Source of the DNA: a virus
Reading direction: 5' to 3' (one strand)
IMG/VR virus record: IMGVR_UViG_3300010938_000281
Location: 22,957 to 86,956 of that record
Length of the DNA stretch: 64,000 nucleotides
Positions 40,974 through 55,149 of this stretch are shown piece by piece. Position numbers and translations under genes: made by a program. Below the pieces are notes generated by a model that was given only the letters and a program-made list of their open reading frames with translations, did no database searches and was not told the DNA's origin. Positions within the stretch are counted from its first letter, which is position 1. Each line of letters opens with the position of its first letter.

Positions 40974-41245
40974 TTCTTTTTAGCCCTTACTATAGTAAAA
41001 AACATATCGCTATAAAAACGTTCTTTGTTTTTCACAAGTTTGTGATGTTTAGTACATAAGGATATACCATTACCAACACTATATCTCAACTCCCAACTAT
41101 CAGCCCATCTAATAATATGATGTACCTGTAGTTTTTTCTTCCTTCTACATCCAGGATATTGACATTTATGACCGTCTCTACTAAGTACAGCGGCTCTAAA
41201 TTCTTTATATCTATCATCCTTAAAGTTACGCCCTACCATAATCAT
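40970..41245 (-). CDS. Small HNH endonuclease
   Basis: 91 residues (or 89 from a second ATG): RDGHKCQYPGCRRKKKLQVHHI gives the first Cys pair and HH, then GISLCTKHHKL completes the HNH with C and H. HNH proteins beside terminase are common in phages with cohesive ends and aid terminase cleavage; a selfish origin is the alternative. Overlaps the cupin gene end by 20 bases. Confidence 0.8.
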   Translation of the reverse strand: MIMVGRNFKDDRYKEFRAAVLSRDGHKCQYPGCRRKKKLQVHHIIRWADSWELRYSVGNGISLCTKHHKLVKNKERFYSDMFFTIVRAKKK

Positions 41246-41573
41246 CTTCGATTCTTATAATATCGTTCTCATCACATATTCCAACTTGCGTTTCAAATAT
41301 TCTAAGTATTTGTGTATCACTTAGATTTTCTATTCTATGTTTCTTTAATCTTGGAACGTATACTGTATTAGAAGGGTAAATAAACGACTCTGTTTCTCCG
41401 AGGGTTAACTTGCCGCACCCATACTCCATTCCCCACCACTCATCTCTTTTCTCGTGGTATTGTAAGGAAAGTTTTTGTTTTGGTCCAAGAACAATTCTCT
41501 TAATAACCATAGTACCCGAACGGTAGATGTCTACATAAAAGCCCCAAGGTTTATCGACCTGCTTTGATGTCAT
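41226..41573 (-). CDS. ManC/mannose-6-phosphate isomerase type II-like cupin
   Basis: 115 residues from ATG 41573. The whole protein matches the C-terminal isomerase domain of bifunctional ManC enzymes: KPWGFYVDIYRSG, IVLGPKQKLSLQYHEKRDEWW (metal-binding His/Glu region), VYVPRLKKHRIENLSD, and the ending IRIEDDYGR. It may interconvert fructose- and mannose-6-phosphate to feed GDP-mannose synthesis. No GDP-mannose pyrophosphorylase is in the window, so the host enzyme may supply that step. It overlaps the GMD gene end by 23 bases. Confidence 0.8.
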   Translation of the reverse strand: MTSKQVDKPWGFYVDIYRSGTMVIKRIVLGPKQKLSLQYHEKRDEWWGMEYGCGKLTLGETESFIYPSNTVYVPRLKKHRIENLSDTQILRIFETQVGICDENDIIRIEDDYGRA

Positions 41574-42678
41574 TGTATACCATCTCCTCGATAAGTTCAT
41601 CGAATGTAACTGTTGGTTTCCACCCCAACTTAGCTCTAATCATAGAAGAATCGCCAAGCAAATAATCAACCTCCGCCGGACGATAATACGCTTGATTTAT
41701 AGCAACATATTGCTCATAATCTAAACCAATATGACTAAAAGCTTTTTGACAAAACTCTCTAACGGTATGAGTTTCCATTGTAGATACAACGTAGTCTCTT
41801 AGATTGTCTTGTTGCAACGAGAGCCAACAAGCTGTAGCTACATCTTTAGCGTGCCCCCAATCCCTTTTAGCGTCCAAATTTCCAAGATGCAAATATGATT
41901 CCTTACATCTTATAGGTCTACTAAATTTCGTATCAGTCTTTGACTCCATCGGCAGACTCGTAAATCTTGAAAGAGTATAGGTGTCGCCGCCCCACCTAGC
42001 CAACTTGCCGACATGATTCGTAATCTTACGAGTAACAAACTCTTTGCCTCGTCTTGGACTTTCAAAATTAAAGTTTATATTTGAACAACATTTTAATCCA
42101 TATGCTTCGCGGTACAATCTAACCAAATGGTATCCTGCTAATTTAGCAATACCGTATGGTGACTGTGGACAAAACTGAGTTGTTTCATCTTGAAATAATG
42201 AATGCTCAAGAGACATACCTTTAGCATCTAATGTTTCATATCTAATTGGTAGCCCTTGAAATTTATCAATATAGCTTGCGGCACGACCAAACATTTCCGA
42301 GGTAGACATTGTAATAAACTTAGAGTTTAACTTAAGCTGTTTAACTCCCTCTAGGAAGTTTAGAACACCTAAAGTATCAACACTAAATGTGTATCCGGGT
42401 TCGGTAAATGATACATGTACAAACGATTGAGCGGCACAATTGTAAATTTCGTCCGGTCTATATTTACTTAACAATCCAAACACGCAAGACGCGTCTGTTA
42501 TATCTCCACAAGCCAATTCAAGGTCTTCGTTGTTAATAACAGAAGCTAAATTATCCATATTAAGATTAGCATTTCTGCGGTAAACCCCAACAACCCTATA
42601 CTTTTTACTTAAAAGCAACTCAACTAAATAGCTGCCAAGTTGACCATTAACACCAGTAACTAAAGCTAGTTTACTCAT
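41551..42678 (-). CDS. gmd: GDP-mannose 4,6-dehydratase
   Basis: 375 residues, an extended SDR enzyme making GDP-4-keto-6-deoxymannose from GDP-mannose with bound NADP. TGVNGQLGSYLVELL is the nucleotide-binding start; YRRNAN follows. CAAQSFVHVSF, MSTSEMFG (Ser/Thr and Glu of the active site) and SPYGIAKLAGYH (YxxxK) are diagnostic of GMD. Late-region LGWKPTVTFDELIEEM is the usual end. It sits at the top of the late block, four genes before the terminase in transcription, while its partner fcl is in the other operon at 1441-2376. Confidence 0.93.
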   Translation of the reverse strand: MSKLALVTGVNGQLGSYLVELLLSKKYRVVGVYRRNANLNMDNLASVINNEDLELACGDITDASCVFGLLSKYRPDEIYNCAAQSFVHVSFTEPGYTFSVDTLGVLNFLEGVKQLKLNSKFITMSTSEMFGRAASYIDKFQGLPIRYETLDAKGMSLEHSLFQDETTQFCPQSPYGIAKLAGYHLVRLYREAYGLKCCSNINFNFESPRRGKEFVTRKITNHVGKLARWGGDTYTLSRFTSLPMESKTDTKFSRPIRCKESYLHLGNLDAKRDWGHAKDVATACWLSLQQDNLRDYVVSTMETHTVREFCQKAFSHIGLDYEQYVAINQAYYRPAEVDYLLGDSSMIRAKLGWKPTVTFDELIEEMVYNDIKAGR

Positions 42679-42687: not shown

Positions 42688-43479
42688 TTATAAATTATCC
42701 TCTTTTATATTATCACTGTTAAGTACAGGTTGCTCAACAGTTCCATCTACATACTGATGGTAGTCCGACAATCTCTCATACTCTGCATTCATAGCAATTC
42801 TAAATTTCTCTATTTCAATACCTAAACTTTTACGAACATCTGGATTGGTTATCAAAGAAGCAACCCAGTCTTTTAATGTCTCCTTTGACTCCTCAAATCT
42901 CTTTTTTCTTTCGGCACGAGTAGCCTTCATCTCCCTTAACATACTCTGCTTACGTTCCATCAACGTCTGGTTTTCTTTCTGAAAATTAGATATAGCAATA
43001 AAACAGTTGGTAATATCTTCGTTTAGTTTACCAATAGCAATATAATCTTTAGGGTCTTTAGCTTTCTCATCTTTAAGCTGCTGTTGCAGTGTCTCTATAA
43101 GCTCTTGACTAAAATACATTCTCTTCAAAACCCTATTGATTAGAATTTCGGTACGAATTGTATCCATAACCTGTAACCGTTCAGTATGTGTAATGTCCTG
43201 TTTGAACTGATTTATAATCTCTCGCCAGTGATATAGAAATGTTTCTTGCTCATCTTCGCTTAACTGTTGTGTAATCTGTTTCCATTCATGAGTTCTTTTG
43301 ATATTCATTTCCATCTGACGTATTTCGTCAGGAATATGTAACTCACCGACCATCTCTGCAATTTTACTCGTTGGTCTGTTTATATGTTCACTCAGCTCAT
43401 CAATACTCATAGACTTATGATTATCGTTAATAAACTGTATCTCTTCTTTGCTCCATCTTCCAGTCTTATAGTGTTTCAT
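42688..43479 (-). CDS. HTH/SANT-like protein, possible terminase small subunit
   Basis: 263 residues. Residues ~1-55 hold a SANT/Myb-like HTH (RWSKEEIQFINDNHKSMSIDELSEHI). The rest is almost all helix with long Lys/Glu/Gln coiled coil. DNA-binding head plus oligomerising helices near the terminase fits a small terminase; a structural regulator is the alternative. Overlaps the sigma factor gene by 14 bases. Confidence 0.5.
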   Translation of the reverse strand: MKHYKTGRWSKEEIQFINDNHKSMSIDELSEHINRPTSKIAEMVGELHIPDEIRQMEMNIKRTHEWKQITQQLSEDEQETFLYHWREIINQFKQDITHTERLQVMDTIRTEILINRVLKRMYFSQELIETLQQQLKDEKAKDPKDYIAIGKLNEDITNCFIAISNFQKENQTLMERKQSMLREMKATRAERKKRFEESKETLKDWVASLITNPDVRKSLGIEIEKFRIAMNAEYERLSDYHQYVDGTVEQPVLNSDNIKEDNL

Positions 43480-43918
43480 TTACTATCTTTCGTATCTCTT
43501 CGATTATTTTTAGTTTGCGCATTTTTGGAATTTGAATGCCGTGGCGTAATTTCAAATAATCCTTACGAAGCGAGGCTGGCAGCTTTTCATCTATCATTTC
43601 CCAGAACTCATTAGATGTAGTCTGATTATTACCAATAGTTTCATACTCATCTTGTATATTATCTAAGCTACAAGTATCAAGTTCCCTATTGGTAAATTTT
43701 CTAATTACATTTTTTATTCTATTACCAACCGATACAGAAAGAAAATTAAGTATACAACCTGATTCTGGTTTATACTTTTTCATAACTTCTAAACCAATAA
43801 TATATGCTTCTTGAGCTAAATCATCCCCGTCTGCAAATTTATAGTTATACTTCTTTTTTATTCTCTGCATTATCTGCTGTATCGCTTCGAGAAACTCCGT
43901 CTCGTTGTACTTGCTCAT
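43466..43918 (-). CDS. Minimal sigma-70-family RNA polymerase sigma factor
   Basis: 150 residues. FADGDDLAQEAYIIGLEVMK and KYKPESGCILNFLSVSVGNRI form a clear region 2 (core binding and -10 recognition). The C-terminal ~40 residues (PASLRKDYLKLRHGIQIPKM) could be a reduced region 4. The layout recalls T4 gp55, which directs host polymerase to late promoters that lack a -35 box. It is positioned at the head of the late block and is a natural partner for the GTGTA late motif. Confidence 0.8.
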   Translation of the reverse strand: MSKYNETEFLEAIQQIMQRIKKKYNYKFADGDDLAQEAYIIGLEVMKKYKPESGCILNFLSVSVGNRIKNVIRKFTNRELDTCSLDNIQDEYETIGNNQTTSNEFWEMIDEKLPASLRKDYLKLRHGIQIPKMRKLKIIEEIRKIVNETL

Positions 43919-44015
43919 CTAATATCTCCGAAATACTCTTGTCCTCACACTTAATATCTTCCTCGACCTCTTGGTCAAGTTTTGCCGTAGATTTTACTAA
44001 AATTTCTGATTTCAC
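43845..44015 (-). CDS. Small acidic protein overlapping the sigma factor gene
   Basis: 56 residues from GTG 44015 with a strong RBS (AAGGGAAG). VKSEILVKSTAKLDQEVEED and a hydrophilic, acidic remainder; 74 bases overlap the sigma gene start in another frame. It may be translationally coupled to it and could be a regulator of it, but no motif is known. Confidence 0.5.
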   Translation of the reverse strand: MKSEILVKSTAKLDQEVEEDIKCEDKSISEILDEQVQRDGVSRSDTADNAENKKEV

Positions 44016-44017
44016 TA

Positions 44018-44046
44018 TTGACTTCCCTTCTTTTTTGTGGTAAAAT
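44018..44046 (+). promoter_or_regulatory. Sigma-70 promoter for the phosphoesterase operon
   Basis: TTGACT, 17-base spacer, TAAAAT; start of transcription would fall about 30 bases before ATG 44086. It is divergent from the late block. Confidence 0.75.
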
Positions 44047-44085
44047 GGTCTGCGGGACTATTATATTATTACACAAAAGGCGAGT

Positions 44086-44736
44086 ATGAAAATCGTACTA
44101 TTATCCGATTTGCACGGATTTTTACCAGAAATAGATAAAAACGGCATAGATTATATGTTCTTATGCGGAGATATTTGTCCAGACTACATTATACCCCAAC
44201 AGTGGTATTGGTACGACGAATACTTTGTACCGTGGTTAAACGAGTGTCCACCGACAATGTTTATACCTGGAAACCACGACTTTCTATTTGAAAGACGTAT
44301 TCCAGAAGAAGATACGTTTGTACAAAATGGACTACATAGACTACCAGACGGTCAAGTTGTTTACGCTTTCGGTTATACAATTTGTCCACGTTGGGCTTTC
44401 CATAAAACCGACGAACAAATAAAATCGCTCTTGACAAAGACGGACGATTTTGATATGATGGTATCTCATAATCCACCCGTTGGAATCTGCGATAGGGCTA
44501 GACCTAGTTTCCACCATAGCGGTTCCACATCTATAAGAGAATTGGTTGATAGAGCAAAGCCCAGAGTTCACATCTTTGGTCACATACACGAAGGGTATGG
44601 TTCAAAGTACGTCGGAGATACTCTCTTTATTAACTGTGCTTTTAGGGATGAAGCTGGAAAACCTAGAAAGCAGTATCTGGTGTTGGACACTGATGATTTG
44701 AGTATTGATGTATTACCATGTAAGGAGTTTGTATGA
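44086..44736 (+). CDS. Calcineurin-like metallophosphoesterase
   Basis: 216 residues with all five motifs of the family: LSDLHG near residue 7, CGDIC near 28, GNHDF near 63, VSHNPP near 126 and FGHIHEGYG near 164. Two-metal phosphodiesterase or phosphatase; substrate unknown (nucleic acid, cyclic dinucleotide or phosphoprotein are all possible). RBS AAGGCGAG. Its stop overlaps the start of the AAA+ gene (ATGA), tying the two together. Confidence 0.85.
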   Translation: MKIVLLSDLHGFLPEIDKNGIDYMFLCGDICPDYIIPQQWYWYDEYFVPWLNECPPTMFIPGNHDFLFERRIPEEDTFVQNGLHRLPDGQVVYAFGYTICPRWAFHKTDEQIKSLLTKTDDFDMMVSHNPPVGICDRARPSFHHSGSTSIRELVDRAKPRVHIFGHIHEGYGSKYVGDTLFINCAFRDEAGKPRKQYLVLDTDDLSIDVLPCKEFV

Positions 44737-46154
44737 TTAGTGATAGTAAACTTGATTTCTACGTTCAAAACAACCTAAACGTCCTTCTTATAGGACGACA
44801 CGGTACTGGCAAAACCAGCAGGGTAAAGAAGTGCTTTGAGAGGCATAATCTCAAGGCGCTTTATTTTTCTGTTTCTACAATGGACCCCTGGGTTGACTTT
44901 GTTGGTATCCCCAAAGAAGTAACCGATGAAAAGGGTATTACATACCTAGACCTTATACGTCCAAAAGCGTTCGCATACGACCAAGTTGAAGCTATTTTTC
45001 TTGACGAATACAATCGCGGCTCCGAAAAGGTTCGTAATGCTACACTTGAACTAATCCAATATAGGTCTATCAACGGTAAGAAATTTAACAACCTTCGTTT
45101 TGTTTGGGCTGCTATTAACCCGGATGATGATATTAACTGTTACGACGTTCAGAAATTAGACCTCGCCCAAAAAGATAGATTTCATATCCATATTGATATT
45201 CCTTATGAACTTGATATGGATTACTTTGCGGATAAATATGGTACACAGGTCGCAAATCGAGTACAAGATTGGTGGAACGACCTTGCTGAAAATATTAAAT
45301 CTATTGTTTCTCCTCGTAGAGTAGACTATGCCCTTGAAGTATATTTGCATATGAACGGCGACCTTAAAGATGTTCTTCCTGTAGCCGCTAATGTTGCACA
45401 TCTTGCAAACGTACTTGAAAAAGATTCTGTTAAGGTCCGCTTAGAATCTATTATGAAAAGCGGTAATGCTAAGTTAGCAGAACCAATTCTAAAGAACGAT
45501 ACCGAATATCAAGAAGCCATTAAGTGGATTCTACTAGATAAGGCCCGTTGCAATTTCTTCCTACCAATCATCAACCATGAGAAATATCGCGCGCTAGTCG
45601 CAGAACATATCAATAACGAGAATATATTGAAGAATATCGCGTCCCCTTTTGATATAAGTCCATCAATTCGTAAGATTCTTCTGGATTGTCATAAAAACAA
45701 CGAATTTAAGAACTCTGTACTTGAAGCTATTCCAGAAGCTACTTCAGATAATTTTAGTAAGAATGTTAGGTCTGTTCAGATTTTTAATCCACAGAAAGGT
45801 TGCAATCCCGGATTCTTTGATAAAATCAACGAGTTTAGTTCTATAGATACCAGCATTCACGAACGTAAGGAAATGATGAAATGGATTATGGAAAACATCG
45901 GCACTACTACAAAGGGTAAAAACGGTGATGCTGTAACAACTATGATGTTTATTGGAAAACAGATGTATAAGACAGTTGATAAAAAGGTTTTATTGAAAGA
46001 ATTTCCCGATATGATTCCGGTATTAAACTGCTGTCTTAAAACAATTGATGGTGGTATTGATATCCGTAAAGATAAAAGATTTAAGTTACTTGGTAAGGCT
46101 ATTGTTCGTCTTGGTGTAGAAGACCTTGTTTGGACTCCTGGTTGCGAGGAATAG
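44733..46154 (+). CDS. MoxR-type AAA+ ATPase
   Basis: 473 residues. Walker A LIGRHGTGKTSRV at residues ~18-30; WVDFVGIPKEV after it; Walker B IFLDEYNRG near residue 90; sensor 1 in FVWAAINPDDD (~125) and the arginine-rich KLDLAQKDRFHI segment. The remaining half is helical. MoxR-type ATPases act with VWA-domain proteins as metal-dependent chaperones. Coupled to the phosphoesterase upstream and, one base after its stop, the VWA gene. Confidence 0.85.
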   Translation: MISDSKLDFYVQNNLNVLLIGRHGTGKTSRVKKCFERHNLKALYFSVSTMDPWVDFVGIPKEVTDEKGITYLDLIRPKAFAYDQVEAIFLDEYNRGSEKVRNATLELIQYRSINGKKFNNLRFVWAAINPDDDINCYDVQKLDLAQKDRFHIHIDIPYELDMDYFADKYGTQVANRVQDWWNDLAENIKSIVSPRRVDYALEVYLHMNGDLKDVLPVAANVAHLANVLEKDSVKVRLESIMKSGNAKLAEPILKNDTEYQEAIKWILLDKARCNFFLPIINHEKYRALVAEHINNENILKNIASPFDISPSIRKILLDCHKNNEFKNSVLEAIPEATSDNFSKNVRSVQIFNPQKGCNPGFFDKINEFSSIDTSIHERKEMMKWIMENIGTTTKGKNGDAVTTMMFIGKQMYKTVDKKVLLKEFPDMIPVLNCCLKTIDGGIDIRKDKRFKLLGKAIVRLGVEDLVWTPGCEE

Positions 46155-46155
46155 T

Positions 46156-47370
46156 ATGGACAATAAGCTTAGACAAGCATTACATACGCTAGAATGTTAT
46201 AATGGTATTTTTAGGCAGCTATGGGAACTTGGTAGAATTCATTTTACCGAGAGCGTTCCTACGGCGTGTATTCGTTTTGATAAAGAAGGAAATGGGCTAC
46301 AATTCTGCTTTAATCCTAAACTATACGAACAAATGTCTAATTATGAGGTGGCTTTCGTTATAGCTCATGAGTGTATGCACGTTATGCTTTATCATGGTAG
46401 AAGATTTGTTAAAAGGCCGGATTATAAATCTCGACATGAGGTATGGAACATAGCTGCTGATATAGCTATTCATGAAATTCTATTTGGAGAATTTGGATTT
46501 GATAGAAGCCTTATCACTACTATTGAGCCATGCACTGTAGACGGTGTATTTAAGGATAGTAAGAGTTTTATTCGGCGTGGTGAAACTACAGAGTATTATT
46601 TTGACAAGCTACATAAAGAGGGTAAAGTAAAATACGTTTCTTTTGACGAACATGATTTTGATGATGCTTTTGCCAACGCCGCTGATTCTGCTATGCAAAA
46701 AGCTTATCGTAGGCTAACAGAGATAGAGAAAAAAGAACTACAGCGTAAAGTTGGACAAAAAGTAGAAGACAAAGAAAAACGTAAAAATGATAATAATGTA
46801 GGTACTGGGGCTGGTATCACCGTATACGATGCCTTAATTCATGAACTGCCCAAAAAGAAATGGGAGCTTATTATTAAAGAATGGGCACAAGCATTTCTTA
46901 AAACTGACAAGTATGATTGGACAAGACGAGATAGAAGAATTTCTCATCTACCTAAAGATATGTTTCTACCTGGAAGCCTAGAACAACATTATAAGAAACA
47001 AAAGCTGTGGATGTTCTTAGATACGTCTGGTAGTTGTATTGATTTAGCTCCTAGATTTTTAAGCGCTGCCGCATCACTTCCCCCTAAATTCTTCGATGTG
47101 AGAGTATTTTGTTTTGATACTAAAATATACGAAATAGATATTCGTAAACAAGAAGTATTAGGAGGCGGCGGTACTTCGTTTGATATTATTGAGGAATATA
47201 TTCGTAAGCAACCAGATAATCCAGACTGTGTATTCGTTACCACTGACGGTTATGGTAACGATGTATTTCCTGCCGAACCTAAAAAATGGCACGTATTTCT
47301 TACATCTGATAATAGAAAGAACTTTCCTAAACAATGTAACTTTCACTCGTTTAAGGAGGGGTTTGAGTGA
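46156..47370 (+). CDS. VWA-like/DUF2201-type metallopeptidase-like protein
   Basis: 404 residues from ATG 46156 (RBS GAGGAA). The N-terminal half has VAFVIAHECMHVMLYHG, a zincin-type HExxH (HECMH) with a further conserved NIAADIAIHEIL helix. The C-terminal ~140 residues are VWA-like: KLWMFLDTSGSC (MIDAS-type D-T-S-G-S), GGGGTSFDIIEEYI and FVTTDGYGND. The pair with MoxR is a known bacterial and phage arrangement. It may remodel or cleave a host protein; target unknown. Confidence 0.8.
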   Translation: MDNKLRQALHTLECYNGIFRQLWELGRIHFTESVPTACIRFDKEGNGLQFCFNPKLYEQMSNYEVAFVIAHECMHVMLYHGRRFVKRPDYKSRHEVWNIAADIAIHEILFGEFGFDRSLITTIEPCTVDGVFKDSKSFIRRGETTEYYFDKLHKEGKVKYVSFDEHDFDDAFANAADSAMQKAYRRLTEIEKKELQRKVGQKVEDKEKRKNDNNVGTGAGITVYDALIHELPKKKWELIIKEWAQAFLKTDKYDWTRRDRRISHLPKDMFLPGSLEQHYKKQKLWMFLDTSGSCIDLAPRFLSAAASLPPKFFDVRVFCFDTKIYEIDIRKQEVLGGGGTSFDIIEEYIRKQPDNPDCVFVTTDGYGNDVFPAEPKKWHVFLTSDNRKNFPKQCNFHSFKEGFE

Positions 47371-47582
47371 ACTACTACTGTCCAGAGCTAGATGAAATAT
47401 TTTCCCATGATTTTCTATCTCACAACATACGAAATATTAAATCTAGTAGGGTTATTGCTTTAGATTGGGAAAATTCTAATGGAAGAATATTCTCTGGAGC
47501 AATAATACTACTAACACCAATACCCGGACAACCATTAGCGCAGGATGTGTCTCTAATAATAATTAAAGACTCTTATGTTTAA
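47367..47582 (+). CDS. Micro-ORF family member a
   Basis: 71 residues from GTG 47367 (very strong RBS AAGGAGGGG), overlapping the VWA stop. MNYYCPELDEIFSH defines the family's N-terminal pattern; the rest includes RVIALDWENSNGRIF. First and longest intact member of the array. Function unknown. Confidence 0.65.
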   Translation: MNYYCPELDEIFSHDFLSHNIRNIKSSRVIALDWENSNGRIFSGAIILLTPIPGQPLAQDVSLIIIKDSYV

Positions 47583-47793
47583 TGATATATATGAACCGTA
47601 TAGAAACGCGTCAGCAATATATATTCACGAAGCTGATGAATTCTACGATATAATATTTAAGGATGATTATCCATACACCCGCATTGATGGAGTTGAACAT
47701 CTTTGTTTATATGACAGTGGGAATACTATGGTATTTTATCAACACGAGATAACTATATGTAAAATACTATGGTCTAATTATGCTGATATATAA
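47575..47793 (+). CDS. Small hypothetical protein in the micro-ORF array
   Basis: 72 residues, acidic, with ICKILWSNYADI at the C-terminus, similar to the end of the 47971 product (LHYIWSNFEEC). Overlaps neighbours on both sides. Function unknown. Confidence 0.55.
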   Translation: MFNDIYEPYRNASAIYIHEADEFYDIIFKDDYPYTRIDGVEHLCLYDSGNTMVFYQHEITICKILWSNYADI

Positions 47794-47984
47794 CGATATT
47801 ATAGACGGGGGTCTATTTTATAAGACATAATATTCTTGAAGAAAGGTATATTAGGTTTTTTGGTATAGATAGGATAATTCAAAAAAGAACCGAAAAAGAA
47901 TACGTTGTAGTGTTGTCTAACACCGACTGGTTTTTTACAACCGTGAACGAAAACTACTATGAGGAATACGATGTTGATATATGA
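47780..47984 (+). pseudogene. Micro-ORF family member with a poly-G frameshift
   Basis: ATG 47780 encodes MLIYNDIIDGG then stops after 16 codons. Removing one base from the GGGGG run at 47807-47811 opens a frame to 47984 (YFIRHNILEERYIRFFGID and on to ENYYEEYDVDI). A natural indel or an assembly error in a homopolymer. Confidence 0.45.
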
Positions 47985-48111
47985 TATTTCTGACGATAGA
48001 ATTTTCGAAGCTTATAACTTAGGCTGGTTTCACGCTTCAAGAGCTTTAGATATTCTCGAAAAAAGAAACTATACTTTGCACTATATTTGGTCTAACTTTG
48101 AGGAATGTTAA
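47971..48111 (+). CDS. Micro-ORF family member d
   Basis: 46 residues, MLIYDISDDRIFEAYNLGWF, ending LHYIWSNFEEC. Overlaps the preceding frame. Same N-terminal pattern as its neighbours. Confidence 0.5.
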   Translation: MLIYDISDDRIFEAYNLGWFHASRALDILEKRNYTLHYIWSNFEEC

Positions 48112-48189
48112 GATATATTCCAGAAACTAAGAACTATTATGTGCGGTTCTAAGATATGGGACGACTTCGATGAGCCATATACTAATTGA
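48105..48189 (+). pseudogene. Decayed micro-ORF
   Basis: ATG 48105 (GAGGA just before) encodes MLRYIPETKNYYVRF and stops. A second frame from 48139 reads GSKIWDDFDEPYTN. The two would join by one frameshift. Confidence 0.3.
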
Positions 48190-48280
48190 AATTATAGCTA
48201 ATACAATTAACGATTTTATTATACCGTATAATTCATGGAAAGAATTTGTTCCAGAGTATATGACTAGGACTCATAAATGA
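48170..48280 (+). CDS. Small hypothetical protein
   Basis: 36 residues (MSHILIEIIANTINDFIIPY and on), with a stop overlapping the next ATG. Lacks the family's Tyr/Asp pattern; may be non-functional. Confidence 0.3.
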   Translation: MSHILIEIIANTINDFIIPYNSWKEFVPEYMTRTHK

Positions 48281-48381
48281 TACTTGTATATAATTTTGAT
48301 TACGATGAAATATTGCCTATTATGGATATTTACGATGATTTATTGTCCGAAATTCGACTTGGTATTAGAACAGAATTATAA
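48277..48381 (+). CDS. Micro-ORF family member e
   Basis: 34 residues, MILVYNFDYDEILPIMDIYD. Starts in the stop of the previous ORF and overlaps the next member by 47 bases in another frame. Confidence 0.35.
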   Translation: MILVYNFDYDEILPIMDIYDDLLSEIRLGIRTEL

Positions 48382-48526
48382 AGACGATACGGCGTATCAT
48401 GATGGATTTTGGTATTTTATAGGATATAATACGTATAAAGAGGTTGTTCTATTGTCCGGCCGCGAACGTAAAAAACCTTTAGACGATGAAAGAGTTTATG
48501 GTATTTGGGTTGATTTATGTACCTAG
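48335..48526 (+). CDS. Micro-ORF family member f
   Basis: 63 residues from ATG 48335, MIYCPKFDLVLEQNY, closely like member a's MNYYCPELDEIFSH. The C-terminal part (VVLLSGRERKKPLDDERVYG) differs. Better preserved than most. Confidence 0.5.
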   Translation: MIYCPKFDLVLEQNYKDDTAYHDGFWYFIGYNTYKEVVLLSGRERKKPLDDERVYGIWVDLCT

Positions 48527-48581
48527 AATAGATGGTATATTTATGTTTAGTTCTCCTATTAACAGTATATGTATTGTGTAA
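48510..48581 (+). CDS. Micro-ORF family fragment
   Basis: 23 codons from TTG 48510: (L)IYVPRIDGIFMFSSPINS. Fits the family pattern but is short and has no clear RBS, so probably a remnant. Confidence 0.25.
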   Translation: MIYVPRIDGIFMFSSPINSICIV

Positions 48582-48591
48582 CCTGAGTATG

Positions 48592-48723
48592 ATGATTTAT
48601 AACATATTGAGTGATGAAATATTCCTTGGTACAGTACACGACCTATTTAGAATAATGTATATACCTAAAGACGAGGATGATTTACCAGCAATAAAAAAAC
48701 GAGTATGGACTCCGTGGGACTAA
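48592..48723 (+). CDS. Micro-ORF family member g
   Basis: 43 residues, MIYNILSDEIFLGTVHDLF, with a charged C-terminus ending KKRVWTPWD. An in-frame ATG sits one codon earlier. Confidence 0.4.
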   Translation: MIYNILSDEIFLGTVHDLFRIMYIPKDEDDLPAIKKRVWTPWD

Positions 48724-48724
48724 T

Positions 48725-48943
48725 ATGTGGTATCAAAGACAGCTTGATGTTATATTTGTCTCTAGTGATATAACAGAAGATGGTAGCTTTGTTCATATGA
48801 ATGGAACTGAGAGATTCAGAAGACATAGCGTCCATGTTCATAAAATATGGGACGAACTTGAAGAGGAACAAGATGTTGTTTTACCATGTACAGAGCGACC
48901 AAGTAATAAAAACGGACCGATATTTCTCCCTACCAAAACATAG
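48725..48943 (+). CDS. Micro-ORF family member h
   Basis: 72 residues, MWYQRQLDVIFVSSDITEDG; the middle is His/Arg-rich and the end is Pro/Lys-rich. Begins one base after the previous stop. Confidence 0.5.
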   Translation: MWYQRQLDVIFVSSDITEDGSFVHMNGTERFRRHSVHVHKIWDELEEEQDVVLPCTERPSNKNGPIFLPTKT

Positions 48944-48967
48944 AATACTTGTGTGGGATTTATTTGA

Positions 48968-49102
48968 GGAGGATTAAATCTAGTAGATGGAGATTATGAT
49001 TGGGCCGGACCTGACGTACTACGACACAATCCAAGCTTAAAAATAAAGAACTTGCGAAGGTGTATTAAGGTTGGCGTTTTTGGGCGCTACGTGATTAGTT
49101 AA
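48968..49102 (+). pseudogene. Decayed micro-ORF without a start codon
   Basis: Open frame after a perfect AGGAGG RBS but with no usable start: NLVDGDYDWAGPDVLRHNP and on to FGRYVIS. A 17-codon ORF starting at 48987 overlaps it in another frame. Confidence 0.3.
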
Positions 49103-49148
49103 GGTGTAACAATGTCTATAAGACCCGCTTGCCGTCTGGAGAATTAAG

Positions 49149-49256
49149 TTGTATTACTACGCGAAAGACGATAAGATATTCAACCATAGTATGCGCCCAT
49201 TCTATGATTTTGGTCATGAGTATGTAATAGGTATACTAATATGGGAACCGTGGTAG
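49149..49256 (+). CDS. Micro-ORF family member i (TTG start)
   Basis: 35 residues from TTG 49149, seven bases after GGAG: (L)YYYAKDDKIFNHSMRPF ending VIGILIWEPW. The RBS and the motif decide the start. Confidence 0.45.
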   Translation: MYYYAKDDKIFNHSMRPFYDFGHEYVIGILIWEPW

Positions 49257-49257
49257 T

Positions 49258-49296
49258 ATGTATTATTATCCCAACTTGGATATGGTTTCACATTAG
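49258..49296 (+). pseudogene. Truncated micro-ORF, last of the array
   Basis: ATG 49258, MYYYPNLDMVSH then stop. Starts like the MYYYPQYD product at 63241 but ends where base composition changes. Confidence 0.3.
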
Positions 49297-49460
49297 GACA
49301 ATATATGTGGGAACCGGACGCTTGTGGCCTATGTTGATAGTGTGAGTGTTACATTCTGATATTTGGTCCCGGTTTTGCCTCGACCACCTGTCGATTTTCG
49401 AGCCTGCACGCCGGTACACATACTGAACAAAAAACCCCACCCGGCAGTCGCCCCGATGAC

Positions 49461-49490
49461 GTAAACCCTTACACGCCAAGGGGTTACGCC
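49461..49490 (+). repeat. Intergenic S element, single copy (S1)
   Basis: GTAAACCCTTACACGCC then AAGGGGTTACGCC; matches the ~30-bp consensus YAAACCCTTACAC-N3-AA-N5-TTAC in plus orientation, 100 bases before a promoter. From 49297 to 49656 this repeat and the promoter are the only features I see. Confidence 0.7.
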
Positions 49491-49591
49491 CACCACATCA
49501 AAACTTTCGTGCCCGGCATGGTCAATCTTTTAGCATGACATTTGCTCATAATAAATTATCTCAGAATTTTATAAAATTGTTCAAGACGGCC

Positions 49592-49619
49592 TTGACTCCA
49601 CGCCGATACTTGGTATAAT
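49592..49619 (+). promoter_or_regulatory. Sigma-70 promoter
   Basis: TTGACT, 16-base spacer, TATAAT, upstream of the acidic protein gene at 49657. Confidence 0.85.
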
Positions 49620-49656
49620 GCACACATCGGACAGCCAACCCTCAACGGAGACGACC

Positions 49657-49902
49657 ATGAGCCAGTTCAATGAATTCGACGCCGAACTTGAAGCGGAACG
49701 TGCCTTCGGGATGACGGGGTATGACTACGCGGATTATAACGATTACCTTGATGGTGACGACCTCGCGAACTACAACGCTAACGAAGCGGATGATTACCGC
49801 GATGAGGGTATGGATGATTTCGACCCGTCCGAATATGAGGCGTCCGACGAAGCCGACATGTACGGCGGATGGGATGATGACGGTGGGCGGTATGATGAGT
49901 AA
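49657..49902 (+). CDS. Highly acidic small protein
   Basis: 81 residues from ATG 49657 with RBS GGAG seven bases upstream. About half of the residues are Asp, Glu or Tyr (YDYADYNDYLDGDDLANYN), with almost no hydrophobic core. Such proteins in early regions often mimic DNA to block host nucleases or regulators; this is an inference from composition. First gene of the GC-richer region, with its own strong promoter. Confidence 0.65.
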   Translation: MSQFNEFDAELEAERAFGMTGYDYADYNDYLDGDDLANYNANEADDYRDEGMDDFDPSEYEASDEADMYGGWDDDGGRYDE

Positions 49903-49982
49903 CGCTTGACGCGGCGGCGTCTAAAGTCCGCGTCGGGGTTTGCGGTCATCCTGACATATAAAACCGCTTATTATACACCTAA

Positions 49983-50036
49983 CTGCGGTGAAGCAACGTA
50001 TAAAGCTCTGTTGCTCAATGTGCGTCCGGCCCGCAG
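49983..50036 (+). other. Candidate small structured RNA (R1)
   Basis: CTGCGG at 49983 pairs with CCGCAG at 50031, enclosing a hairpin AGCAAC...GTTGCT whose loop holds AAAGCTCT. Shares AAGCTCTGT followed by ATGTG with the element at 51379. Located in the 3' region of the acidic gene transcript. Confidence 0.35.
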
Positions 50037-50055
50037 CCTTGACTACCGAACGCAA

Positions 50056-50130
50056 CCTCTTACGGTGTAACGGGTTAGCGTATCGGGAGGACTTCCGATA
50101 GCGTAAAGCCTTACAGCATATAGACTTACA
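50056..50130 (+). repeat. Intergenic S element, inverted pair (S2)
   Basis: A minus-orientation copy (50056-50080) and a plus copy (50101-50130) flank TATCGG-GAGGACTT-CCGATA, making one large imperfect palindrome. Confidence 0.75.
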
Positions 50131-50260
50131 TCACATTTCCACTATTGAAAAATACATACCTCTTTCCCGTTCAGCAAGTAACGTACCGCTATTCATTTGG
50201 CATACGCTTTGCTCTATTATTTATTTCTTTTTTATTTTTCTTTTTTCTATGATATTGTGA

Positions 50261-50288
50261 TTGACAATCCGAACCATGACGATATAAT
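50261..50288 (+). promoter_or_regulatory. Sigma-70 promoter
   Basis: TTGACA, 16-base spacer, TATAAT; both boxes are consensus. Upstream of the 50331 gene. Confidence 0.85.
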
Positions 50289-50330
50289 ACACGCATGGAA
50301 ACGACAAACGCCCAAACCGGAGAGAAGAAA

Positions 50331-50471
50331 ATGCTGCAAGACATGGATTATGTTTGCGACAACATGGACAAAATCAATGAAGCAATTCGTGAGGCCGACG
50401 CTGAAATTCAACCGGTTCTCGACCTCTGCACGGTTCTGGAATGGTACGGTATCGAAATCCTATACGAATAA
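50331..50471 (+). CDS. Small hypothetical protein
   Basis: 46 residues from ATG 50331, preceded by GGAGAGAAG. Acidic and helical (DNMDKINEAIREADAEI). An in-frame ATG at 50295 is possible but has no RBS. Directly behind a consensus promoter, so a real early gene; function unknown. Confidence 0.55.
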   Translation: MLQDMDYVCDNMDKINEAIREADAEIQPVLDLCTVLEWYGIEILYE

Positions 50472-50584
50472 TTCGCACAATCCGATATCCGGCGGATAAA
50501 TCCGGTTTTGGGAGTTTCGGCGGTAAGTTGTACCTTGTAATTAAAACTGCCGCACATGTTTATTTTACTTCTCAGGATTTCACA

Positions 50585-50665
50585 ATGTATGGTTTGTTTC
50601 TTATCACCCTTTTCGTCGTCGCATCTATTATTGGATACCTGACGGAAAAGCAAGTATCGGAATGA
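50585..50665 (+). CDS. Tiny membrane protein
   Basis: 26 residues from ATG 50585 (AGGA upstream): MYGLFLITLFVVASIIGYL is one transmembrane helix with a charged C-terminus. Its stop overlaps the next start. Confidence 0.5.
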   Translation: MYGLFLITLFVVASIIGYLTEKQVSE

Positions 50666-50784
50666 ACATGGATATCATCGACAAAATTCTTGTGACGATT
50701 ATCGGATTTGTTGTAATCAACATCCTGATTTGTCTGTTTACGGCATGGGATATTCTGTCGATATACGCTCGCTTTAGCATGTGA
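50662..50784 (+). CDS. Small membrane protein
   Basis: 40 residues with one long hydrophobic helix (ILVTIIGFVVINILICLF). Coupled by ATGA overlap to the 26-residue membrane protein; the two may form a complex in the host membrane. Confidence 0.55.
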   Translation: MNMDIIDKILVTIIGFVVINILICLFTAWDILSIYARFSM

Positions 50785-50796
50785 AATGCGTTGCGA

Positions 50797-50824
50797 TAAA
50801 GCCTTACGGTGTAAGGACTTAGCG
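50797..50824 (-). repeat. Intergenic S element, single copy, minus orientation (S3)
   Basis: Minus-strand CTAAGTCCTTACACCGTAA and on; one half of the usual pair. Confidence 0.6.
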
Positions 50825-50850
50825 TATCCGAAGCATGGTTGACCGATGGT

Positions 50851-50961
50851 ATGATTGCATCAGAAGCGAGATTCTATCTGTCATTCTACAGTATGAATAC
50901 GCCAGAAAATGTTTCCGCCGTCGTCGAATTCTTCAAGAATTACCTTGACAGTCTCCGATAA
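50851..50961 (+). CDS. Possible small protein
   Basis: 36 residues (MIASEARFYLSFYSMNTPEN and on to KNYLDSLR) running through the -35 box of the next promoter. No clear RBS; an overlapping 37-codon frame from 50834 is an alternative. Tentative. Confidence 0.35.
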   Translation: MIASEARFYLSFYSMNTPENVSAVVEFFKNYLDSLR

Positions 50962-50973
50962 CTATGGTATAAT
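50945..50973 (+). promoter_or_regulatory. Sigma-70 promoter
   Basis: TTGACA, 17-base spacer, TATAAT; about 30 bases before the 51003 gene. Confidence 0.85.
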
Positions 50974-51002
50974 CTGGAAATGACAAACAGGGGAGAAATG
51001 AA

Positions 51003-51179
51003 ATGAGATTCCTAATTTATACCGATGGCACTTTCCGATGCGTCTTTCAAGGAAGCAATTGCCTTGACATTGTTGCGGAATACTGCAAGAATAACTTTCC
51101 CGGCGAAACCGCCGTTGTGAAGTATCTTGATACAAATGGTAAACTCACTTCCAAGGTTATTTATCGGGGGCAGCAATGA
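51003..51179 (+). CDS. Small hypothetical protein
   Basis: 58 residues from ATG 51003 behind GGGGAG. MRFLIYTDGTFRCVFQGSN suggests a small beta domain. Stop overlaps the next start (ATGA). First gene of a two-gene unit with its own promoter. Confidence 0.6.
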   Translation: MRFLIYTDGTFRCVFQGSNCLDIVAEYCKNNFPGETAVVKYLDTNGKLTSKVIYRGQQ

Positions 51180-51352
51180 ATCAAGCAAGCCAGTATTCGA
51201 CAATCGGCTATATCATGGACTATGGTAACCTGGTCAAGGTAGTGATTCTGCGACACGACGGTAAGAACGTTATTGTGCGTCGTCTGGGCGAATTCAATAA
51301 GGTGATTGTATTGAATGCGAATGAGGTGTTTGAACGCGACTTGGCCGAATAG
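51176..51352 (+). CDS. Small hypothetical protein, coupled
   Basis: 58 residues (MNQASQYSTIGYIMDYGNLV and on), a basic beta-rich small domain of unknown function. Overlaps the previous gene by 4 bases. Confidence 0.6.
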   Translation: MNQASQYSTIGYIMDYGNLVKVVILRHDGKNVIVRRLGEFNKVIVLNANEVFERDLAE

Positions 51353-51378
51353 GCTATATGGGCTGACGCCGGTTAGCG

Positions 51379-51441
51379 GCGCATGTCCGTACACTTAAGC
51401 TCTGTACGGATGTGTAGCAGGCGCGATTCCCGCCGATGCGC
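51379..51441 (+). other. Candidate small structured RNA (R2)
   Basis: GCGCAT pairs with ATGCGC, enclosing an 8-bp hairpin (TCCGTACA/TGTACGGA, loop CTTAAGCTC) and a second hairpin GGCG-CGATTCC-CGCC. Shares AAGCTCTGT...ATGTG with R1. It has a tRNA-like look, but there is no D arm and the anticodon-like loop has nine bases. Confidence 0.4.
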
Positions 51442-51501
51442 TTTGTTACATCCGCTCTTTGCGGATATCACGCGCAAACCCGCACCCCCGCGAAAATACT
51501 T
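51442..51501 (+). repeat. Two-block T element (T1)
   Basis: TTTGTTACATCC, 34 bases, then CCGCGAAAATACTT. Weakest of the four copies at the second block. It sits 12 bases before a small gene's start. Confidence 0.5.
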
Positions 51502-51512
51502 AGGGAGATAAA

Positions 51513-51650
51513 ATGATATTCTCACAGTCTATTCCGACAATTGAGGGATGGATAGGTGCGATGATTTTTCCCCGATATTCTAAACCCTTACAGCACAACA
51601 ACTTACGCCAATATTTCAAAATCTCACAATTTTACCGATTACACGCTTGA
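51513..51650 (+). CDS. Possible small protein overlapping an S element and a promoter
   Basis: 45 residues from ATG 51513 with a strong RBS (AGGGAGATAAA). The second half is the translation of S4 and the following promoter region, so the functional part may be only the first ~25 residues (MIFSQSIPTIEGWIGAMIF). Confidence 0.4.
   Translation: MIFSQSIPTIEGWIGAMIFPRYSKPLQHNNLRQYFKISQFYRLHA
51580..51609 (+). repeat. Intergenic S element, single copy (S4)
   Basis: CTAAACCCTTACAGCACAA then CAACTTACGCC; 38 bases upstream of the next -35 box. Confidence 0.7.
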
Positions 51651-51675
51651 CTCACGGTCGATAAGGTGTTATAAT
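51647..51675 (+). promoter_or_regulatory. Sigma-70 promoter
   Basis: TTGACT, 17-base spacer, TATAAT; start of the 51.7-52.7 kb operon. Confidence 0.85.
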
Positions 51676-51732
51676 CGGCCCATCACAGCAACCTACTCAA
51701 CGTTGAAAAGCGTGGGCGTGGGCCGTATAGGT

Positions 51733-51846
51733 ATGGAGTTAGGTCTTGAGAGTTGGCGGTGGTTGTGGAATACGCTTTGTGTTGATTCGCGGCCTGTTCA
51801 AGAGTTGATTCAGGTATTGGAAGATGAAGGTCTTATCTTGGAGTAG
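51733..51846 (+). CDS. Small hypothetical protein
   Basis: 37 residues, MELGLESWRWLWNTLCVDSR and on, helical. No strong RBS; a GTG start a few codons upstream is possible. Followed after 2 bases by the next gene, whose RBS lies in its 3' end. Confidence 0.45.
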   Translation: MELGLESWRWLWNTLCVDSRPVQELIQVLEDEGLILE

Positions 51847-51848
51847 CA

Positions 51849-52061
51849 ATGAAATTTCTAGCTCTCGGTATCTGTTACGAAGACGGAACCAACAATTCCC
51901 TTGAAGTTAATTTCATCGACCCGCAACTTACTTCTGATGCACTGCGTAAAAAGTTTAAGTATCCTGAATCGTTCAAATGGGACAGGATATTCCTGATTCG
52001 CAATGATATAGAAAGTCCGTCTGTGGTCTGCAACTGGGAGCTTGCCAAGGATTTCTCATAA
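51849..52061 (+). CDS. Small hypothetical protein
   Basis: 70 residues with RBS TTGGAG. MKFLALGICYEDGTNNSLEV leads a small alpha/beta domain. Family not recognised. Confidence 0.6.
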   Translation: MKFLALGICYEDGTNNSLEVNFIDPQLTSDALRKKFKYPESFKWDRIFLIRNDIESPSVVCNWELAKDFS

Positions 52062-52242
52062 TTACTGTACCGGAGAAAAAACAATATTCAACGACGAGGA
52101 TGATTTCTACGTCGATGAGGAACAAATCGAGGTTGATGAAATGTTGGGCGATTTTGATGAGCATGACGAACCTCTAGATGACGAACTTGATTTCATCGAA
52201 GATGAAGAGTTCGATGATGATTTCGACGATTCGGATTACTAA
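52042..52242 (+). CDS. Highly acidic small protein, start uncertain
   Basis: Up to 66 residues from TTG 52042, overlapping the previous gene by 20 bases. The C-terminal 45 are dominated by Asp and Glu (DEPLDDELDFIEDEEFDDD). A good RBS (CGGAG) at ~52072 has no ATG/GTG/TTG after it in frame, so the true start is unclear. Like the 49657 product, possibly a DNA mimic. Confidence 0.5.
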   Translation: MPRISHNYCTGEKTIFNDEDDFYVDEEQIEVDEMLGDFDEHDEPLDDELDFIEDEEFDDDFDDSDY

Positions 52243-52266
52243 TTCCTCCAACCGAAAGAGTTTCGT

Positions 52267-52452
52267 ATGATTCGCCTATTCCGCAAAAATACTACTTCGC
52301 TTCTCACAATCAAACTGTCCGATGTAGGTGCGACATTTGATATGTCAGACGCCGCAATTCAGGCACATGTGAACGCGATGTACTTTGGATGGGTGGTTAT
52401 GATGATTGAACAGGGAAACGAAATTCGTACTTTTGAAGGAATTTTTGAATGA
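52267..52452 (+). CDS. Small hypothetical protein
   Basis: 61 residues, MIRLFRKNTTSLLTIKLSDV and on, with a weak GAAAGAG RBS. Stop overlaps the next start. Confidence 0.55.
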   Translation: MIRLFRKNTTSLLTIKLSDVGATFDMSDAAIQAHVNAMYFGWVVMMIEQGNEIRTFEGIFE

Positions 52453-52532
52453 TTTGCTTAGCGTTGGGTTTAGGAATTAGTATAGTCCTCTATATCATAG
52501 GGCGAGCAATTTTCGATGACATAAACTTTTGA
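52449..52532 (+). CDS. Tiny membrane protein
   Basis: 27 residues with one hydrophobic helix (ICLALGLGISIVLYIIG). ATGA overlap with the preceding gene. One of several tiny single-helix membrane proteins in this region. Confidence 0.5.
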   Translation: MICLALGLGISIVLYIIGRAIFDDINF

Positions 52533-52542
52533 AAGGGTTAAC

Positions 52543-52740
52543 ATGATTCAGGAATGCACTTGTGAGGATTTTGTTCGTGTGGTTTATCAGGGCGGAAAGT
52601 CCCCGGAATACCTTGGAACCGTGCAAGAATGCGGTCCCAAACAAATTCTGGTTAAGCTGTCAAAACCCGACGCTAAGGGTAAGGTTCAATACCGCAATTT
52701 CACGCGGTCTAACATCACACAACTAGAAAAACTGTCGTGA
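52543..52740 (+). CDS. Small basic hypothetical protein
   Basis: 65 residues with RBS AAAGGG. CTCEDFVRVVYQGGKSPEYL and ILVKLSKPDAKGKVQYRNF look like a small beta-barrel (SH3-like) domain. Function unknown. Confidence 0.55.
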   Translation: MIQECTCEDFVRVVYQGGKSPEYLGTVQECGPKQILVKLSKPDAKGKVQYRNFTRSNITQLEKLS

Positions 52741-52949
52741 ACCATTCGGACTTACCGCCGCAACTATGGGAAGCCTGTTGTGGCGATATGTTCAACGATA
52801 GGGACAATCCTCACAATCACCGACTTCGATTCATGAAGTTTGTGGTTGTGGGGTTGATTCCTTTACCTCAATGTGTTATACTCTGGCCTGACTTTTGGGG
52901 TAGTGAAAATGAACAGAAGCAGACGCAAAGAAATACGCCGATAAACTGA
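52737..52949 (+). CDS. Possible small protein (GTG start)
   Basis: 70 codons from GTG 52737 overlapping the previous stop. A hydrophobic segment (FVVVGLIPLPQCVILWP) lies in the middle, but a weak promoter is inside the same sequence and the C-terminus is low-complexity. Tentative. Confidence 0.3.
   Translation: MNHSDLPPQLWEACCGDMFNDRDNPHNHRLRFMKFVVVGLIPLPQCVILWPDFWGSENEQKQTQRNTPIN
52854..52882 (+). promoter_or_regulatory. Weak sigma-70-like promoter
   Basis: TTGATT, 17-base spacer, TATACT; would drive the S5 region and the 53173 gene. Confidence 0.35.
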
Positions 52950-52985
52950 ATCAATGTGCAGACGGTGCGGCGATTCGGAATATGG

Positions 52986-53067
52986 AATAAAGCTTTATGG
53001 TGTAACGAGTTACGCTATCGGAAGCACTCTCGATTCCCTAAACCCTTACACTATAACAACTTACATA
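52986..53067 (+). repeat. Intergenic S element, inverted pair (S5)
   Basis: Minus copy 52986-53015, spacer starting TATCGGAAGC, plus copy 53038-53067 (CTAAACCCTTACACTATAA). Nothing else recognisable in 52950-53172. Confidence 0.75.
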
Positions 53068-53172
53068 TATACACCAAGATTGAAACGACATAACCTTTTA
53101 TCTCCTCACGCTTTAGTGTTTTTCTGACAAGCCGTCTCAAGTTTGTTTCACTAATTAGCCGATATTCACTGT

Positions 53173-53301
53173 ATGGTGAAACCGCTGTTGTTTTGTTCAG
53201 GTTGTGCGGGCTGGACGGTTAAGCAAACCTATTCAATCAGTGGAGAATTCCCAAACGTCCCACATTACCACGTCGGCGTCGAATTCGAGAAAAAATTCTA
53301 A
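53173..53301 (+). CDS. Small hypothetical protein
   Basis: 42 residues, MVKPLLFCSGCAGWTVKQTY and on, with a CxxC pair and H-Y-H near the C-terminus that could bind metal. No clear RBS. Ends 9 bases before the next promoter. Confidence 0.4.
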   Translation: MVKPLLFCSGCAGWTVKQTYSISGEFPNVPHYHVGVEFEKKF

Positions 53302-53310
53302 GGAATAGGC

Positions 53311-53339
53311 TTGACAATACAGGCCGAATGGGTTATAAT
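53311..53339 (+). promoter_or_regulatory. Sigma-70 promoter
   Basis: TTGACA, 17-base spacer, TATAAT; 37 bases before ATG 53377. Confidence 0.9.
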
Positions 53340-53376
53340 AGACACATCAGACACGCAACATAAACAAGGAAACAAA

Positions 53377-53805
53377 ATGTACCGTTCGCAAATCAGTCAG
53401 GTTCTCAAAATGATGGAAGATTGCGAAAATAAGGCTGATTATCGCGACCTTCGACGATTGATAAATCGGTATATCAACAATCTGGACAAATGGAAGCTGA
53501 CGCCGAACGATGTCGGCGCGGATGCTTCCCCCGCAAAAAATCATTGGACAACGCGGCCGTGGCGTTTCGATACTGATTTCACCATTGAAACTCGTAACGC
53601 TGGCGATAAGCTGCACGACTTTTTGGTTGAACTGTACGGAAACACCCCGTTCCGCATTAACAGTGATGGTAGATACAAAATCCAATTGATTAAGAAGCTT
53701 ATGGAATTCGGTGGGTACTACGACGAAGGTACAGGCAAAACGGCATACGTCAGTCTTTTGCACGCCAAACAGTTTGTGGAAAAATACTTCGCCGACTGGT
53801 GCTAG
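53377..53805 (+). CDS. Hypothetical early protein
   Basis: 142 residues from ATG 53377 (RBS AAGGAA). N-terminal helices (SQISQVLKMMEDCENKADYR) followed by a mixed domain with KNHWTTRPWRFDTDF and a C-terminal helix. No family recognised. Single-gene transcript between two promoters. Confidence 0.65.
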   Translation: MYRSQISQVLKMMEDCENKADYRDLRRLINRYINNLDKWKLTPNDVGADASPAKNHWTTRPWRFDTDFTIETRNAGDKLHDFLVELYGNTPFRINSDGRYKIQLIKKLMEFGGYYDEGTGKTAYVSLLHAKQFVEKYFADWC

Positions 53806-53807
53806 GC

Positions 53808-53836
53808 CTGACATGTAAGCAAAAACCGGGTATAAT
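53808..53836 (+). promoter_or_regulatory. Sigma-70 promoter
   Basis: CTGACA, 17-base spacer, TATAAT; 26 bases before ATG 53863. Confidence 0.8.
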
Positions 53837-53862
53837 AAACCCATCACAAACAAGGAGAAAAA

Positions 53863-54045
53863 ATGGTTCCTCGGATTGCAAGTTATTTGGTCCACAATGC
53901 ACGCGGCGGATACTTTGACATTCAGCCGCGTAACGCGAAACTTCCACCGGTCAGGGTTGATACCGTCCCTGCTCATGCCGTGAAAACCGATAGCGATATG
54001 ATTCAAAAAAACGGTGCATGTCTTCCAATTCGGAATAACCGCTAG
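53863..54045 (+). CDS. Small basic hypothetical protein
   Basis: 60 residues with a perfect RBS (AAGGAGAAAAA). Arg/Pro-rich (QPRNAKLPPVRVDTVPAHAV). Function unknown. Confidence 0.6.
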   Translation: MVPRIASYLVHNARGGYFDIQPRNAKLPPVRVDTVPAHAVKTDSDMIQKNGACLPIRNNR

Positions 54046-54127
54046 GGACAACACGAACCCCTTTTGATTACTGTTCAAGTGTATCAACGCTTGTGGTTTT
54101 CGGGAAAGAATTTTCGGCTGATTACTC

Positions 54128-54156
54128 TTGACAACGCCGACGAAATACGGTACAAT
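54128..54156 (+). promoter_or_regulatory. Sigma-70 promoter for a long untranslated leader
   Basis: TTGACA, 17-base spacer, TACAAT. The next convincing start codon is 460 bases downstream. Confidence 0.8.
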
Positions 54157-54162
54157 GTGCGG

Positions 54163-54600: not shown

Positions 54601-54615
54601 TTTTGGAGTTTGATA

Positions 54616-54999: not shown

Positions 55000-55038
55000 G
55001 TTACTATACGTTTGCAAGCCGTTAATAACTCGTGATAA

Positions 55039-55118: not shown

Positions 55119-55149
55119 CTCAACAGATGCACCTAGCAAACCTTTTTAT

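Follow-up and report, generated by a model that had tools for sequence, protein, structure and literature searches.

Pairs formed by a MoxR-type AAA+ ATPase and a partner with a von Willebrand factor A (VWA) domain are exemplified by NorQ–NorD and CbbQ–CbbO, which act on nitric oxide reductase and rubisco, respectively. The same combination of MoxR fold and VWA partner is encoded by the phage locus described here, which occupies positions 44086–47370 of a 64,000-nucleotide stretch (hereafter the window) of the 90,511-base virus record IMGVR_UViG_3300010938_000281. Three intact rightward genes, all with open frames, lie there in the order metallophosphoesterase (MPE), AAA+ ATPase and zincin–VWA fusion protein. 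The partners in the NorQ–NorD and CbbQ–CbbO systems are presumed to be without an HExxH peptidase domain, unlike the VWA protein of the window.

The MoxR–VWA pair is not new in phages, having been described in 2021 in group 2.2 jumbo phages, where the VWA protein carries an N-terminal metallopeptidase fusion and where, by analogy with the Acidianus two-tailed virus, the pair was proposed to act in virion assembly, including proteolytic processing (Iyer et al. 2021, PMC7824862). AAA ATPase–vWA gene pairs also occur in haloarchaeal viruses (PMC7911831), and the roseophage relatives of N4 gp24 and gp25 are listed as function-unassigned ATPase and vWFA proteins (PMC2784036). The window and the group 2.2 jumbo phages have the same two proteins, paired in the same way and with the VWA domain likewise fused to a zincin N-terminus; unlike in those phages, however, the record is 90.5 kb, the pair does not lie by structural genes on its own strand, and an MPE gene is found upstream. 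N4 gp24 and gp25 belong to the PHROG families of the window proteins (phrog_1297, E 2.1e-136, and phrog_1314, E 1.3e-135), although the VWA protein of the window is only about 25% identical to its N4 counterpart and the window ATPase is longer, at 473 against 352 residues. The window pair joins, in other words, an established but functionally uncharacterised group of phage ATPase–VWA systems. The original prediction, made from the sequence of the locus, had allowed that such a pair might prove to be widely known with a defined and unrelated role; widely known it is, though without a defined role. Since the pair is present in the laboratory phages N4 and AR9, its function is directly testable. 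A linkage of all three genes (MPE, ATPase and VWA) was not reported in anything returned by the literature searches; a CRISPRi-ART paper did not mention phage N4 under the terms searched, and a jumbo-phage review held no text on MoxR or vWA.

The ATPase gene (44733–46154, + strand) encodes a protein of 473 residues with a helical C-terminal region, and its product matches phrog_1297 (E 1.4e-17). The Walker A motif GRHGTGKT (44793–44816), in which G24, G26 and K27 are invariant across the 33–34 alignment rows, is followed by the equally invariant Walker B residues D91–E92 (45003–45008) of LDEYN; N129, R149 and P194–R195 are likewise invariant, and from their positions these are taken to be sensor 1, the arginine finger and sensor 2. 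In the predicted model (mean predicted local distance difference test score, pLDDT, of 85.3) the top fold match was NorQ (9qh4; Z 16.0, 3.4 Å, 217 residues), followed by CbbQ (Z 15.5), and the PDB titles of the matched MoxR-type ATPases include NorQ–NorD VWA complexes. The fold alone does not separate the protein from other AAA+ branches, because dynein AAA modules score within 1 Z of NorQ and CbbQ. The comparison, done with VIA-align, covered mainly residues 1–231 of the ATPase model and 243–404 of the VWA model. Pfam AAA_3 and AAA_5 were below their cut-offs, and the CobS equivalog TIGR01650 gave 14.3 bits against a cut-off of 558.55. With the Walker, sensor and arginine-finger residues, the fold and a VWA partner gene all found together, the ATPase is assigned to the MoxR family.

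The partner is a zincin (DUF2201_N)–VWA fusion protein of 404 residues (46156–47370, + strand), matching PF13203 (E 3.2e-12) and phrog_1314 (E 4.3e-46). The most plausible start is the ATG at 46156, directly after the ATPase stop; the reading frame taken from its first possible start begins with the TTG at 46126. An HECMH zinc motif (46366–46380) lies in the N-terminal domain, and a metal ion-dependent adhesion site (MIDAS) of sequence DTSGS (47020–47034) in the C-terminal one. Throughout a 32-row alignment H71, E72, H75 and D102, as well as N98, are invariant, and so are the MIDAS residues D289, S291, S293, T340 and D364, an invariance because of which both the peptidase and the MIDAS activities appear to have been kept by selection. 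Taking the two proteins together, conservation goes well beyond what chance would predict, with little or no variation at the Walker, HExxH and MIDAS residues. The VWA fold is clear at residues 280–404 of the predicted model (mean pLDDT 81.1; 3gxb, Z 11.1, 2.7 Å, 125 residues), while a phmmer search of the protein against the PDB gave no match. An HExxH domain followed by a VWA domain with a full MIDAS is the arrangement of the jumbo-phage metallopeptidase–vWA and N4 gp25 family, to which the protein is assigned on its sequence. Members of this zincin–VWA family are called HNH endonucleases in PHROGs (phrog_1314) and in the RefSeq records of several named phages (for example L002:5860-7002 and L241:7198-8622). 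That identity was rejected for the window protein, which had no HNH match in Pfam or NCBIfam at E values up to 1 and matched DUF2201_N, M48, SprT-like and VWA models instead. All of the motifs originally noticed in the second and third genes are thus present, and the remodelling pair that had been proposed from them is well supported by the NorQ-like fold, the clear VWA fold and the strong linkage of the two genes.

This linkage was followed in a survey of gene neighbourhoods. Scanning with the window ATPase yielded 56 viral loci, a profile scan found 180 viral relatives and contributed the 80 best of them, and a genome scan added 15 loci in contigs of metagenome-assembled genomes (MAGs); the pooled set held 237 sequences, made up of 235 loci in addition to the window and the window's own copy (L003), and 80 of the 235 were centred on an MPE gene. 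At the thresholds used, both genes were present in 147 of the 237, an ATPase gene without a VWA gene in 7, and a VWA gene without an ATPase gene in 3. With the window's own copy excluded and a limit of 3.5 kb applied, 143 loci were paired and 10 ATPase loci were unpaired, some of these lying at a contig end and others having a second copy of the pair some kb away. The 143 paired loci reduce to 82 non-redundant ones, in which the genes stand as an ATPase–VWA tandem in 73, are divergent in 8 and are reversed in 1. The ATPase–VWA pair is therefore a widespread phage module with strong linkage. Both PHROG families are carried by N4 and AR9; in SCTP-2, Atu_ph07, PA5oct and Vibrio phage 2.275.O the ATPase was recognised by PHROG and the VWA protein by profile, and in Zuri and Vibrio phage 1.238.A the ATPase by PHROG and the partner by tblastn. 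In the trees of the pair (that of the VWA protein being a quick version) the window sits on a long branch, and none of the other pairs is a well-supported close relative. Some huge phages have two copies of the ATPase or of the entire pair per genome (L037, L041, L042; L031 with L043), and in PA5oct (L239) the ATPase and VWA genes are separated by a gene at 4314–5810 that is annotated as a putative homing endonuclease. The pair is also found in MAG contigs of Armatimonadota, Planctomycetota and Verrucomicrobiota (L226, L229, L230, L231, L233–L235), some of them long and with neighbours that look cellular by eye.

The first gene of the trio (44086–44736, + strand) encodes a calcineurin-like MPE of 216 residues that matches PF00149 (E 1e-11) and phrog_1649 (E 1.4e-15). 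Its metal motifs are complete (DLH at 44107–44115, GNHD at 44269–44280 and GHIH at 44578–44589), and MPPED1 and MPPED2 are its closest solved relatives (MPPED2, 3rl4, 6.9e-12, the top match spanning residues 120–201 only of the query). By these motifs and this similarity the protein fits the MPPED, or class III phosphodiesterase, group, whose enzymes hydrolyse phosphodiesters with a preference for 2′,3′-cAMP (PMC10547211); for the window protein, the substrate is predicted by likeness. The MPE also matches the PADLOC model PDC-S10 (2e-37), which is the name of a model and was also matched by three of four further phage MPEs; PADLOC found nothing for the ATPase or the VWA protein.

The unusual character of the MPE linkage, already suspected at the outset, was borne out by the survey, in which the pair recurred widely and the MPE beside it hardly at all. 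An MPE of this subfamily adjoins the ATPase gene upstream in the window and in one relative, L049, only, with the same 4-nt overlap in both, so that the linkage does have a relative and yet remains rare. Among 118 MPE-centred viral loci, some of them on the same contig, the pair is present in L274 alone, which is L049's own contig, and in the regions of named phages a phrog_1649 phosphoesterase lies upstream of the pair in one of ten, Atu_ph07, with two genes between. In a quickly built MPE tree the window, on a long branch, and L049 fall on opposite sides of a supported branch, which makes two separate joinings likely; in the ATPase tree the sister of L049 is L098 and not the window. The association is rare and probably incidental, with the MPE standing outside the module. 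Being found at two loci that lie apart in the MPE tree, it probably tells little about the machine itself.

The close spacing seen in the original prediction holds, in that there is a 4-nt overlap between the ATPase ATG and the MPE stop, and the VWA ATG comes just past the ATPase stop. The single promoter that was proposed along with it fares less well. A plausible sigma-70-like candidate (TTGACT-17-TAAAAT with TG, + strand, 44018–44046) precedes the trio and scores 10/12 by consensus match, but a second promoter-like site (TTGACA-17-TATGAT with TG, + strand, 44431–44459), identified in the same manner, scores 11/12 and lies within the MPE gene, from where it could drive the ATPase–VWA pair separately from the MPE. 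Because promoter-like sites show no excess in the region (21 found in 43900–49000 against 22.5 expected) and the better-scoring site is internal, the operon structure is best regarded as putative. On the + strand of 44000–62000, the arm to the right of the structural genes, there are 13 sigma-70 sites scoring at least 11/12, 6 of them perfect (shuffle mean 0.4, maximum 1 in 30 shuffles), and there are none on the − strand of this interval or on either strand of the structural arm, the terminase and further phage genes lying to the left of the trio on the opposite strand.

The mechanism favoured here, to which an even chance is given, is that of a MoxR ring working with a VWA–zincin protein that is adaptor and protease in one, made early or in the middle of infection, the MPE being independent of it. 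The ATPase would probably form a hexameric ring, onto which the VWA domain of the partner would dock through its metal site and present the client, and the zincin domain would then cut the client while the ring pulls or remodels it. The pair would most likely be expressed from promoters of the host type where the rightward arm begins; early or middle production would mean that it acts before virions are built, perhaps on a host protein or on one of replication or transcription, or else that it serves as a chaperone produced beforehand. The disarming of a host complex, which was one of the functions first suggested, is possible. The MPE would probably be an MPPED-like phosphodiesterase, engaged in the clean-up of nucleotides or 2′,3′-cyclic phosphates, that happens by chance to share the transcription unit. 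Early or middle timing is probable in the window phage, yet virion assembly is a serious rival, and several observations tell against the mechanism just outlined. The site before the trio scores 10/12, for which reason early expression of the trio is a presumption, and 12 of the 13 strong sites lie at 49592–58832, the remaining one being the site inside the MPE gene. A gene for the baseplate hub (its representative matching phrog_150, 1e-23) lies upstream of the pair on the same strand in 41 of the 82 non-redundant loci, the PA5oct ATPase (phrog_1297, 1.9e-94) bears an electrospray ionization tandem mass spectrometry (ESI-MS/MS) note like several PA5oct structural proteins, and neither a client nor a peptidase activity is reported for the zincin–VWA family in the literature consulted.

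Some of these points are what makes the assembly proposal made in print for the jumbo phages attractive, with the pair serving tail or baseplate proteins as a chaperone-protease in virion assembly and maturation. The hub or its neighbour p248 is found upstream on the same strand in 42 of the 82 loci, and in 34 of the 82 a late-sigma-factor-like gene, the representative of which matches the late sigma factor family phrog_234 (1.7e-7), lies close by on the opposite strand. The window has a distant member of this sigma family as well, a small divergent gene on the − strand at 43466–43918 (E 4e-5 against a profile from which the window copy was excluded), although Pfam Sigma70_r2 alone is below its cut-off for the product. 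On the other hand, the hub or p248 context is absent from 40 of the 82, including the window, where no hub gene lies beside the pair, and the pairs that have it belong mostly to a single large set in the ATPase tree. The AR9 pair lies behind an annotated early promoter. A transcription study of that phage, whose text names neither gene of the pair, detected 33 of its 34 predicted early promoters and found 41 of 43 virion proteins to be late (PMC5312081). In N4 and three other Schitoviridae, which are short-tailed, the pair lies amid genes for RNA polymerase, dCTP deaminase, thymidylate synthase or DNA polymerase. Together with the sigma-70-rich arm of the window these contexts suggest action before the late period, and in this the survey bears on the published proposal. 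Half of the distinct loci are nevertheless in a baseplate cluster, and a single role must cover both contexts; assembly is held to be possible, though less probable than the early or middle protease. Metal insertion, in which a target enzyme would receive its metal or cofactor from the pair as in NorQD, CoxDE and CobST, had also been put forward originally and found no support. The similarity to the NorQ fold and the weak similarity of the ATPase to CobS (E 0.035; TIGR01650, E 0.017) would agree with it, but neither the gene clusters listed nor the annotated phage regions were seen to have a target metalloenzyme or a chelatase subunit next to the pair, and the fused, invariant HExxH suggests cleavage instead, so that such a role seems very improbable.

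A functional unit of all three genes, in which the phosphodiesterase would strip a nucleotide signal or modification tied to the client of the MoxR–VWA pair, for example in counter-defence, is judged unlikely. It would accommodate the shared MPE subfamily (PDC-S10) and the identical overlap in L049, and also the phosphoesterase near the pair in Atu_ph07. In 6.89 Mb of 42 records there are 46 PF00149 genes, a density at which 81 pairs should have 0.28 immediate same-strand neighbours (P = 0.25 for one or more), assuming one gene every 700 bp and 75% of genes on the same strand; when the count is restricted to the subfamily (5 of 7 matches below 1e-20, in the same 6.89 Mb), the expectation falls to about 0.03, which is suggestive but post hoc. 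Against the unit stand the former of these estimates, the lack of a subfamily MPE anywhere in the loci read for 80 of the 82 pairs, the near-absence of the pair around MPE-centred loci, and the choice of the window for its having the trio in the first place. VMAP-type defence ternary systems (PMC7159879) were considered for the locus as well, and no gene for a third component was noticed there. A bolder version would see an ATP-driven early or middle split protease, made of a MoxR ring and a zincin–VWA protein, spread from N4-like podoviruses to megaphages and dismantling or processing a host or replication protein, to which an MPPED-like phosphodiesterase was recruited at least twice through direct translational coupling, giving a counter-host unit that acts on protein and nucleotide together; this too is a long shot.

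A few further features of the window were noted. The T4-type late promoter TATAAATA occurs 20 times in the window against a shuffled mean of 11.5, with 1 of 100 shuffles as high; its occurrences do not lie cleanly before the leftward genes, and for that reason no claim is made from the excess. A second protein of HExxH type (HEIAHA), which by eye was judged to be SprT-like, is encoded at 61830–62363. Genes that from sequence likeness are presumed to encode a GDP-mannose dehydratase (1441–2376), a GDP-fucose synthase (41551–42678) and a cupin isomerase (41226–41600) are spread apart in the record and possibly belong to a sugar-nucleotide pathway.

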